64,000 nucleotides of DNA, from positions 28,626,288-28,690,287 of the forward strand of contig NC_092676.1 of assembly GCF_964355755.1 (NCBI RefSeq), in the 5' to 3' direction. A program made the position numbers and the translations under genes. Below, one piece after another: positions 47,905 through 61,300 of the stretch. The stretch comes from Antedon mediterranea. Lineage: Eukaryota > Echinodermata > Crinoidea > Comatulida > Antedonidae. The first letter of the stretch is position 1. Each line of letters begins with the position of its first letter. Below the pieces are notes generated by a model, which was given only the letters and a program-made list of their open reading frames with translations, made no database searches and was not told the origin of the DNA.

Positions 47905-49111
47905 TTAACCAAAAAGAAAGTGACACCAGTCAAGTGTTTGTTCCGTCGAGTTGACGTCACCAAGCAGGTCTTGACACGGGTTCTTACTTTCACTTTTATC
48001 GTCTTTAAATCGTTTACCTATTGCAAACAAAAATAGTTGTTAGTTTTATATGATACATAATTGATGATGATGATGATGGCGATGATTACGCTGTTAAAAA
48101 TACAAATATTGGATAAGATTTAATGATGATACCGACAGATTGATTATGCGGGATGGTTATGTGTTTCATTTGAAGTCCGTCTAGGCCTACTCAACTTCAA
48201 ATTTTTAATTTGATTATGAGACCAGTGATGATGCTATTATGAACATTAGAGTAATAGTGGTAGGCATGCTGATTATGATAAGACAAAAAATGATAAAACG
48301 GATATGATAGAATGGATATTGATTATGATACCAAAGATGTTGATGATGAAAGTGTGGTTGAATTTTAGATTATGCTACTGATAAGACATAAAACAAATAA
48401 TGAGACAGAGTGATGAATTGATGAAGATGATACTGATACCAGTGATGATGCTAATTTATGAAATGATCAGAGTAATACTGATAATGATAAGACAAGGGAT
48501 GATACAACGGGTATGATGGAACGGATATTTGTTATTGAGTAAATTATGGTACTAATAAAACAAAGATACATGAAACAGATAATGATACAGAATGATGATG
48601 AAACTGATGAAGATGGCATGGATAAAAAACAATATATCAATGTCTTACCGTACGGCCCGGTCCACCATCCACCACGTGACTGTTCGCTAGATGCTCCTCT
48701 CTTCATATCAATATTACCAATAGATCGTTGAATCTTCCCTAATAAATATCCTTGATTTCTCAATCTATCAAAATATTGCAGAAATTCACCCGAGGGCTGA
48801 TTACGTATTCGAACCAGCAGCTGACAGAATGTTCCGCAATCTGTTAACCGTAAGATGGCAGGCAAATTGACGTCTTTTGCAGAACTTCTTCCGTCAAATG
48901 CAGCGTTAAAGTAGTTATCTGCTGTGGAAGGTAAGGCTTCTAATGGCAAAGAGTTTGGACGGAGTTGTCCTGTTAAAACGGGATGGTTATCATTTGAAGT
49001 TCGCCTAGGCTTACTCAACTTCCAGTTTTCTGCATTTTGCGACAGCAAAGACTTTGGTTGCACCACCGCTATCAGTAAAGGAATGACCATTAACACTGTA
49101 ATCATCTCCAT
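47905..49111 (-). CDS. Putative neuropeptide/prohormone precursor, two exons
   Basis: Exons 48649-49111 and 47905-48017 (minus) join at phase 1 to 191 residues. I do not recognise the family. A signal peptide is evident ('MEMITVLMVIPLLIAVVQ'). Residues 136-157 form a textbook prohormone cassette: 'MKR', the segment 'GASSEQSRGGWWTGPY' and 'GKR'. Cleavage at both dibasic sites, with the glycine as amide donor, would release a peptide ending in proline-tyrosine-amide. The splice falls within the amidation glycine codon, so the complete GKR exists only after joining the exons. Other dibasic sites are Arg36-Arg37. A conserved-looking block with 'TDCGTFCQLL' and a helical 'EFLQYFDRLRNQGYLLGKI' precedes the cassette, and two more cysteines (169, 186) follow. 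The start is the first ATG giving a signal peptide. The exon 2 join is inferred from phase and content. The 630-bp intron is GAT-rich with a diverged ~220-bp direct duplication (about 48210-48330 versus 48430-48545). Confidence 0.68.
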
Positions 49112-50481
49112 ACCTAGGTTGTTATCCAAACGTGTGTATCAATTTAAGTTACCTGACAGTATTTATACATTTTTGTCTAATTTGAATGCAAATTATGCTT
49201 TCACACTTGTGGGCGTCCTGAAACTTGCAGTGCTAATTATAGGCTAGTGAATATTTGATGGGGATATTATAAGTTACACCGTGTTATTACTAAGTATTAA
49301 TATTCAATTTCTGCTAACAAAAATAAAGTACACATATCACTTCTCGATTACAAATATCTATCATATATTAGTTTCTCCTTCTAGAAAGTGGAATAATTAT
49401 GACGTCGCAATGTTGTTGATTTGAAGAATACATTTAGGCAGATGAAAATGGTGTTTTCTCTTTAGTGGCCATGACGTTTACATAAAATTATGTAAAACAA
49501 AACTTTAAAATATTTGCATACAAAGTAAAACAATAAATGAAAGACAATGAAATGAAAAGTTAATCTGTGTAATATTCTTGCACTTCTCACTTCATTTGGA
49601 CAATTCTTGTTAATTTACAAAGTATTGATAAACCATAAACTTATTTTCAATATTAAAATCTTATTATTTAACAAGTCATGGAGATAAAATTGTCCGTTAC
49701 TTCTGCCTGACGACTTGATAGAAATTCAGGAATGAGATTTAGTCCATGCCTGGTCGCAGAGGTGGCACTCGAGAGGGTGGAGTAGGTATAAAGAAAGTCA
49801 CGTTATGGAAATTGAAACATTTTGTAAAATTAAAAGCTCGCATGGTACACATTCCGCTCAGTTTGTACCCACGTGCGTAATATCTGTCCCTATTTTGTTG
49901 TTTTAGTGACAATTTTCTATTCGTCATTTAGGCTTGACAGAAATTAATACCGATATAATTACCCAGAATCAAAAACGGAATCTCCAGAGGTGAGGCAGTA
50001 TTGAAATGCAGTATAAACGCCTACGCAACAAGCAAAATATGTCATAAAATATTGTAATTTACACGTTACACGAAAGAAAATCATTAGATTTATATTAAAA
50101 AACGAAAATAAAAACCATTAGATAAGTAGTACTAATGTACCGGTACACAATATTCACACGTCCAAATGTCTTAATTGAAATGATACGTATACTATTTATG
50201 ATGACGTCACTGATAACATCTTCGAATGTCAAATGTTGGTTCAATTACGGTACGTCAATTCGATTCAGATTGTTTTTAGTTTAAACTGAAAACGAACTCG
50301 TTTTGAAAATGATGAAGAGAGAAAGAAAGTTAACGCGCGAGTAGTTATCATTATCGCTCGTACTATTATCGTAGTTATCAGTTTAAACGCCCGCGTAACA
50401 TGCATTATCGTTATCATTTTATACGCGCGCGTACCATTATCGTAGTTATCAGTTTAAACGCGCGCGTAATATTATTCAACC
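49112..50481. other. Spacer upstream of the precursor gene
   Basis: The precursor's promoter should lie in the first few hundred bases. 50325-50470 contains several 'gtttaaacgc(g/c)cgcgta' copies alternating with 'attatcgtagttatca', a small irregular tandem repeat. No gene that I can support is present. Confidence 0.45.
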
Positions 50482-51303: not shown

Positions 51304-52112
51304 AACATTTAATATTTTCCTGGGTTATTATAGTTTGAATTAATTTTTAATCTTATACAGTAATTATTCACGTTCAAACACAGTTTAAATCTCTTATATT
51401 AATTTATTTAATTACCATAAATCTCATACACCATAATAACTTAACAATAGTACAATTTTAGGATACTTTTCATTGGTTCAACTCTGTTATTAAAATATTT
51501 TAAGGTTTAAAATAATTAATTCTCTAACCACAAATTTTGCAATCAATTTAATTATCCATAGGAGATAATTATTTTAACACAATTTCCATTTTATACACTA
51601 TCTAATATGTTACAATAATTCAAATTTATAGGCCTGTTTAATTTTTGTTTGTGGGATGGGGCGTTGAGGTTACACGTATTTGTTACATTTCCAGTACTAA
51701 ATAGTAATTGTATATCCATAGAAAAATAGGTTAAGATATTTATTTTATTTTATTCAATCGAAACCAACAGCGATAATTACCGCCACTAACAGGTTTGATA
51801 CAAACAAAGCCAGGACTGTTTAAAGCACCTTGATTGGTCCGAACATTGACTTCTTACGTCCAGTGCCCACCTTGACCAGGTGACATAAGCCAATACGTCT
51901 GAGGCAGATACTAGATGCAGGGGCTGCCATAAGATTCAGCAGTGCTGGTTTCAAATGCCTAACTGGACCCCAGCTCCATATACAGCACCCGATATTCTTA
52001 AATGGTTTCACATCCAAACTCTAACCAGGCACAACGTTGCTAACTTCGGTGATCTGACGAGAACCGGTGTTTCAACGTAGTAAAGCCGTATTTATTTTAT
52101 ATGGTAATAATT
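51304..52112. other. Spacer 3' of APIP
   Basis: A+T-rich to about 51780. From 51810 to 52020 the base composition becomes balanced, with a minus-strand open frame ('VRHLKPALLNLMAAPASSIC' region) resembling no protein that I know; it may be a transposon remnant. The APIP 3' UTR should fall in the right-hand part. Confidence 0.4.
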
Positions 52113-58300: not shown

Positions 58301-61300
58301 CCTAGTATCATGGGTTTAAATCCAATGTGGTGTCAATTCCACTTAATCAATAGGCTCATCATTTTGATGTTAGAAGAATTGATAAAAGGGATGTCAAAAT
58401 ATGGTATATAGGCCATATTGAAAGTTAATGGTTATAAGACCAAGTTCATGGCCTTGGTTCAAATCCTATTTAATATCATAATTGGAACTTAATTATTCAT
58501 AAAGTGGAGGCCTTTGTAGAACCTTCTGACTGTTAATTATTTCTTTTATTTAAATAATTATTTAGGTAATCTTGCCTTATTGCTTTACTGTGTTCTGGTC
58601 GCATTTTTGTATGTTATGCAAAATAATTGATACAATATAACTATAAATTCTGGTTTGTAGGGATGTTTTAAAATACATGTCAACTAAACCTAAAAAGGAC
58701 AGTGTACCAGCTAAATCAACGACAGCTACAACTCAAACAATTTCACCTCCACAAATGTCTGGTGTCAAAGGTCATAAGGTAGTTTGTATTCTTCCACTTA
58801 CAACACCACTCTGCAAGTATTAGACATCACACCTTTTTTTTGTCAAACTAGGTAGACAGAGCTTAATACACACTAAATTAAAGTGTTTCACTTAAGTGAT
58901 TTTAATGACCACATTACCTAGTTAATTAATGTAATACTATACACACCTGAAGCAATTAGTTGATTACTTAATGATTAGTAATAACAGTTATTAAGAAATA
59001 ATGATAAATTACGTTACTTATCAATTAAAATTTGTTTATAAGCATTTGAATGTTTACACCATGAAGAATAATGTTTGCAGTATCTTTGCATAATTTCTTG
59101 AACATAATCTATCAACTGTTTGGACAAAGGACGTTGACCGATTAACTTCATGAGACGGATGACCACTTTTATTGAACTCTGATGCACAATCTGTAGTAGA
59201 ACTAATGTTGTGTAAATGTCCTTAAAATTGTTTTTTCAATTTCTTTTAGACTCCAGCTTATGAGGATTTAGAATTAAGTAATATGCGGAAGGTTATTGCC
59301 AGACGTCTGACAGAATCTAAGGTTACATTTATTATAGTGTTAGCCCCCCCCCCCTCCCCCCCCCCTTCTTCCTTTCCAAATTAAGAAATAAGATAGCAGG
59401 GAAATTGTTAATACATTTAACATACAATGATGCATACAAGGTCAGAGGTCACCATTCCTTTTTTTTTACTCATCTATATTTTTTCTAAATTAAGCAATGA
59501 GATACAAGGGAAATGTTTAGTACATTTAACGTATACAGAATCATATCAAGCTGATGCATACAAGGTCAGAGGTCACTTCTCCTTCAGATGTTCATTACCT
59601 TTACTTTTTCGAAGGATGAACTTGGTTATTTTTAGTGACATTTTGTATGCAGTTTGCCTGTTTGTTTTGATCCAACTTAGTCAATATCTAAAATAATGGA
59701 AATGTCTGAATTTTGATTCTAAATTTACAACAGTAATTATCCATTTCATCATTATATTAATTATATATATATATTAATTATAATATAATTTGTAAAAATT
59801 GCTAGTGTTGCCCGAAAGATCGGCTTGGCAACTTTTTCTGGCTGTTTTCCTTTATCATTTTGATTTAGCTTCTTGCTTATTTTATTTTGTATCACCATTG
59901 AGATCCAGCCACTGATACCCACAGCATTGTCATTATTTTCAGTAATTTGTCTTTGGATTTAATTATAATATAATATATAAATAATTCCGATCACCTGGAT
60001 AGAGTGCTTGATAAACAGAGGTAGAGGTAAATTATTAATTATATATATATATATACATCACAGACACAGAATAAATTCTAAACCGCCCGGTGATATACTG
60101 AAATTTAATTAATTAATTTGAAATGATAAAGATGAGTAAATCTGTGAGAATGAGAAAAGGTCACCCCAACATATATTATTTATTTCAAATATTTCTATAT
60201 TTCAGAGTACTGTACCACATGCATATGCTACAATAGAATGTACAATAGACGCAATATTAAAACTAAGGAAATCATTTGCAAGGGACAAATCCAAGCTATC
60301 TGTCAATGACTGTGTTATTAAGGCGGCTGCAATGGCTCTTAAAGTAAGTTTAGGTTTGAATCCTACATTGTACCTGTGGCTCACACCATATGTCAATGAC
60401 TTTGTTATTAAAGCGGCTGCAATGGCTCTTAAAGTGAGTTTAGGTTTGAATCCTACATTGTACCTGTGGCTCACACCATATGTCAATGACTTTGTTATTA
60501 AGGTGGCTGCAATGGCTCTTAAAGTGAGTTTAGGTTTGAATCCTACATTGTGCCTGTGGCTCACACCATATGTCAATGACTTTGTTATTAAGGCGGCTGC
60601 AATGGCTCTTAAAGTGAGTTTAGGTTTGAATCCTACATTGTACCTGTGGCTCACACCATATGTCAATGACTTTGTTATTAAGGCGGCTGCAATGGCTCTT
60701 AAAGTGAGTTTAGGTTTGAATCCTACATTGTGCCTGTGGCTCACACCATATGTCAATGACTTTGTTATTAAGGCGGCTGCAATGGCTCTTAAAGTGAGTT
60801 TAGGTTTGAATCCTACATTGTACCTGTGGCTCACACCATATTAGCCAAGATCTTTAAACTTTTAAATTCTGTTTATTTTTTGATAAAAGTATAAACATCT
60901 TCAACTTATTGATAGGCTAATTGTTTGTTTGTTTGTTTGTTTGTTTGCTAATTAACTTGTTTGTTCGAAAGTAGAGTATTTATTACTTATTTATATATTA
61001 CTTAAGACTTTTTTAAAACCAAATAGTTTAAATATTGTTAGGCGCTCTGTTCTTAGTAGAGGGCGCCATATAAAAGCCTAAATAGAATAGAATATTTAAA
61101 ACTATTTTTATCGAAATAAAAAACACTTCTGTGATTTCTTTTCCCCACTAAAAGGAGCACCCAAAAGTAAATTCACAATGGAAAGATGAGGGTGTTGTAC
61201 AGATGGCCAATGTTGACATATCAGTTGCTGTGGCAACAGAACAAGGACTGATTACACCGATTGTGACAGATGCTTCGAATAAAGGATTAAAGCAGATATC

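Follow-up and report, generated by a model that had tools for sequence, protein, structure and literature searches.

A probable two-exon gene for an amidated-peptide precursor of unrecognised family in the crinoid Antedon mediterranea

Does a short two-exon frame in the genome of a crinoid encode a secreted peptide precursor and, if so, to which of the known signalling families does it belong? A first-pass annotation of the window (the whole stretch of 64,000 nucleotides that was analysed) had proposed a neuropeptide or peptide hormone gene at 47905-49111, and this stands as the best reading, being predicted from the anatomy of the precursor, from simulations and from codon usage. The locus is very probably a two-exon crinoid gene for a secreted prohormone that falls in no identifiable family.

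Joining 49111-48649 to 48017-47905 on the minus strand yields a coding sequence of 576 nt including the TAA, starting at the first ATG of the exon 1 frame and specifying 191 amino acids (Table 1). The number of exons and of residues originally annotated, and the splitting of the amidation glycine codon by an intron, are thereby reproduced, with the same exon/intron boundaries recovered to the base. The splice sites are consensus and the TATA box and AATAAA are in fitting positions; together with exon-like codon usage, the TATA box and poly(A) signal speak for a real gene. Scored for codon usage, the spliced frame reaches 0.068; seven neighbouring exons span -0.06 to 0.46, a range that includes it, and 99.1% of non-coding chunks score lower. 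The neighbours used for this comparison are exons of thymidylate synthase, of amine oxidase and of what, from our own reading of their translations, we take to be an AMBRA1-like gene, those last exons having no Pfam match. Chance expectation was derived from 64-kb windows simulated with a 3rd-order Markov model of the window's own composition. Open reading frames that combine a leader-like start with KR...G[KR] arise at 0.017 per simulated window, as against 1 in the real window, and the longest stop-to-stop frame among 200 simulated windows is 203 aa, as against 223 here.

Table 1. Features of the precursor gene and its surroundings, in order of transcription (positions are those of the window)
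Feature	Position	Strand	Basis or detail
TATA box TATAAATA	49160..49167	(-)	~50 nt upstream of ATG; seen in sequence
Coding exon 1	48649..49111	(-)	residues 1-154 and first base of amidation Gly codon; sequence and codon score
Hydrophobic signal-peptide-like leader MEMITVLMVIPLLIAVVQPKS	49049..49111	(-)	hydropathy maximum 3.28 over 12 residues, within residues 1-30
Dibasic site RR, residues 36-37	49001..49006	(-)	translation
CGTFC cysteine pair (Cys92, Cys96) in spacer polypeptide	48824..48838	(-)	translation
KR cleavage site, residues 137-138	48698..48703	(-)	translation
Predicted amidated peptide GASSEQSRGGWWTGPY, residues 139-154	48650..48697	(-)	translation
Intron, 631 nt, GT-AG, phase 1	48018..48648	(-)	GTAAGA...TTTGCAATAG; splits amidation Gly codon (G/GT)
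Partial exon 1 copy inside intron	48150..48205	(-)	same orientation; frame open: NLKLSRPRRTSNETHNHPA then stop
Coding exon 2	47905..48017	(-)	remainder of Gly, KR, C-terminal peptide, stop
C-terminal peptide FKDDKSESKNPCQDLLGDVNSTEQTLDWCHFLF and terminal Gly	47908..48009	(-)	sequence; Cys169-Cys186 loop possible; putative amidation
Poly(A) signal AATAAA	47887..47892	(-)	12 nt past stop; seen in sequence

With respect to membership among neuropeptide and peptide hormone precursors, an N-terminal hydrophobic leader is present by hydropathy, which bears out as a prediction the signal peptide earlier claimed, and KR-GASSEQSRGGWWTGPY-GKR is present as a peptide bounded by basic sites and carrying a C-terminal Gly for amidation. 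The 16-residue segment that had been described as preceded by KR and followed by GKR is found at residues 139-154, the GKR (residues 155-157) coming directly after it, and the cysteine pairs said to lie on either side of it are Cys92/Cys96 and Cys169/Cys186. Counted against the prohormone reading are the lack of a basic n-region and of a clear -3/-1 cleavage motif in the predicted leader, the distance of GASSEQSRGGWWTGPY from that leader within a long spacer, and its presence in a single copy. Between the GKR and the TAA are 34 residues, of which the last is Gly191 (codon 47908-47910). With the claim of one amidated peptide, the site for GASSEQSRGGWWTGPY-amide is upheld, but the count of one may be too low because the precursor ends in a Gly immediately before the stop, a residue passed over in the first-pass annotation and itself a substrate for PAM. 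A second amidated product beyond GASSEQSRGGWWTGPY-amide, a C-terminal 33-mer with a Cys-Cys loop and an HFLF-amide end, is thus possible.

Prohormone convertase, carboxypeptidase and PAM are established processing enzymes, and from the layout just described we infer that the gene is expressed, that its precursor is processed and that a product has a receptor. The leader would direct the 191-residue precursor into the secretory pathway, where prohormone convertase would cut at KR (137-138) and at GKR (155-157). Removal of KR by carboxypeptidase and conversion of Gly155 to an amide by PAM would then yield GASSEQSRGGWWTGPY-NH2, with a predicted [M+H]+ of 1724.78, and this amide is the most likely product. 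An extra cut at the internal Arg could give GGWWTGPY-NH2 (922.42), and the C-terminal fragment with its Gly at the stop may likewise be amidated and closed into a Cys169-Cys186 disulfide loop, for which the predicted [M+H]+ is 3856.76. The released peptide would presumably signal to nerve or muscle targets through a G-protein-coupled receptor.

Relatives of the precursor were sought at several levels. No family is matched in Pfam, and a neurophysin domain, as accompanies vasopressin/oxytocin or NG peptides, is absent by the same search; among PDB sequences there is no meaningful relative, the best E being about 1. In the paper texts searched WWTGPY was not found and GPY-amide strings gave no neuropeptide match. 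A galanin-like reading of 'GYLLG' (residues 121-125) was dropped because that stretch is not placed behind a cleavage site. The crinoid survey of Aleotti et al. 2022 (PMC9793003) has ten monomeric family homologues and PCNP1-20, and the GASSEQSRGGWWTGPY precursor fits none of the PCNP descriptions in its main text, which was the extent of the comparison. The earlier designation as unrecognised therefore holds so far, as judged from Pfam, PDB, the paper texts for WWTGPY and those main-text descriptions.

Across the 354 Mb assembly of 18 contigs, among which a COX1 family search brought up no mitochondrial contig, no second copy of the precursor is found at E up to 10, and the locus is single copy. 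Overlooked in the first-pass annotation was a fragment of exon 1 repeated within the intron (48150-48205). Its source is a block at ~48983-49035, the exon version reading NWKLSKPRRTSNDNHPV and the intron version NLKLSRPRRTSNETHNHPA. Apart from the intron copy, no match to the block is detectable by search elsewhere in the genome, by which a dispersed repeat is ruled out, and the intron copy looks like a partial internal duplication. Elsewhere in the window, tandem repeats at 60205-60841 of a fragment matching 2-oxoacid dehydrogenase acyltransferase look like an amplified exon fragment, and 51977-52093 (-) matches a 5S rRNA gene above the gathering score.

Two other neuropeptide sequences, crinotocin and the PCNP4 peptide, mark the genome as that of a feather star, probably Antedon or a close relative. 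CFWRTCPVG is printed in PMC9793003, where, in the text compared, the vasopressin/oxytocin-type peptide is named crinotocin. The crinotocin gene is at C4:25446600-25456500, with an exon encoding a leader and CFWRTCPVG-GKR near 560-680 of the locus and situated ~8 kb before the neurophysin exon, itself the only neurophysin match in the genome. The PCNP4 peptide of Antedon mediterranea, GLFPTGGMDPLGASYFT, has an identical copy with KR and GKR flanks on contig C3. It is within an open frame of 461 aa (contig C3 ~158,000-159,400; ORF 343-1728 minus of the locus), along with ~16 more copies of [ASG]FPGSGGMDTLGNGYF[TK]-GKR or of sequences very like it. These repeats have the Phe, the Asp-(Pro/Thr)-Leu and the C-terminal aromatic residue that the consulted text gives for crinoid pedal peptide/orcokinin-type peptides; according to that text, the type was not detected in A. 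mediterranea, and PCNP4 is described with one peptide (PMC9793003).

Several other interpretations of the locus merit weighing against that of a prohormone whose chief product is the amidated 16-mer. It is unlikely, while deserving some attention, that the main product is instead either the ~99-residue CGTFC polypeptide (38-136) or the C-terminal Cys-loop peptide with its HFLF-amide. The RR and KR sites would free both fragments, the C-terminal Gly is directly usable for amidation, and a single-sequence AlphaFold model of exon 1 has helices in residues 64-143, with pLDDT about 60 across much of that stretch; however, with a mean pLDDT of 47.7 the confidence is low and so the fold says little, and the classic KR-x16-GKR layout points to the 16-mer. 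Quite improbable is a secreted protein without a signalling role (in defence or matrix, for example), or a gene in decay, in which KR and GKR occur by coincidence. That the precursor is without a known relative and that the partial exon copy in the intron represents local rearrangement would accord with such an origin, but the open frame is intact, as are the splice sites, the promoter and the poly(A) signal, and the rarity of the leader with KR..G[KR] in simulated windows argues against coincidence.

Little credence is given to the gene belonging, as a diverged crinoid representative, to a bilaterian family already known, most plausibly bombesin-type or a ligand of the echinoderm tachykinin-type receptors, and the corresponding proposal, that it encodes the ligand still missing in crinoids for a conserved tachykinin- or bombesin-type receptor and is too divergent for homology searches, is just as much a long shot. 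W-x-x-G-P-Y-amide may be set beside the bombesin-type WAVGHLM-amide and FGPTY-amide, the end pattern being one that GASSEQSRGGWWTGPY shares with ArBN and BN. Tachykinin-type peptides are defined by an FXGXR- or FXGLM-amide end and by activation of tachykinin-type receptors, and of this WTGPY-amide fits only the loose pattern aromatic-x-G-x-Z of ligands for such receptors. Neither bombesin nor tachykinin is among the families reported in crinoids in the survey text compared, and the tachykinin type is worth naming because the ligands of the echinoderm receptors are stated to be undiscovered (PMC9400282). The likeness is nevertheless at the level of shuffles (p 0.15 for GASSEQSRGGWWTGPY against the bombesin-type set and 0.06-0.08 when ArBN or BN is taken alone, with the tachykinin pattern in 5% of shuffles), and the position of bombesin-type peptides and the placement of their introns are unlike those here. 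A degenerate DNA pattern for the canonical bombesin exon and a query with the ArBN peptide had no match in the genome, both being weak negatives. As the family tests failed or did no better than shuffles, the gene is filed only as an amidated-peptide precursor of the general kind.

All other living echinoderms form the sister group of the crinoids, for which the neuropeptides published so far come from three species. To these a clean precursor, single copy and outside the main-text descriptions of the survey, adds one defined peptide that can be synthesized and whose mass is predicted. Should the gene prove to be a diverged offshoot of a bilaterian family, it would help to settle the evolution of such families in echinoderms.

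The closest parallels in anatomy are instructive. Bombesin-type peptides directly follow the signal peptide, and the sequence that encodes them is interrupted by a phase-1 intron (PMC12002301). Echinoderm precursors of this type (ArBN) are like the present one in having a single amidated peptide with a phase-1 intron near it, and ArBN itself, EPRRNYNRVFGPTY-NH2, has Gly-Pro close to its Tyr-amide end (PMC12002301). However, GASSEQSRGGWWTGPY at residues 139-154 is >100 residues from the leader, the phase-1 intron interrupts the codon of the amidation Gly, past the peptide and not inside it, one coding intron is present as against three, and there is no PRXN or RIFGPXX-amide motif. Luqin-type precursors also have a single amidated peptide and then a C-terminal Cys pair, but theirs is an RW/RF/RY-amide end with the two Cys ten residues apart (PMC7041311, PMC4772807), whereas PY-amide and Cys169-Cys186 with 16 between rule out membership here. 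Kisspeptin-type precursors of echinoderms share a Cys pair upstream of the amidated peptide (KPP1) and a Gly-X-X-amide end (KPP2). Membership of that type is ruled out by the ending, GASSEQSRGGWWTGPY having neither the LPF- of KPP1 (RXLPF-amide) nor a GMX-amide end, and by gene structure, since in KPP1 a phase-1 intron follows the signal peptide and KPP2 has a single coding exon, in contrast to the Gly codon intron here. With PCNP2-20 (PMC9793003), no peptide printed in the text compared matches GASSEQSRGGWWTGPY, and those PCNPs whose peptides are not printed there are set apart by description only (lengths of 27, 28, 32 or 60 residues, or cysteine-containing). As that text describes them, PCNP2-20 are orphans in which a leader is combined with one amidated peptide, or a few, flanked by basic sites, and they come from the same animal class as the precursor considered here.
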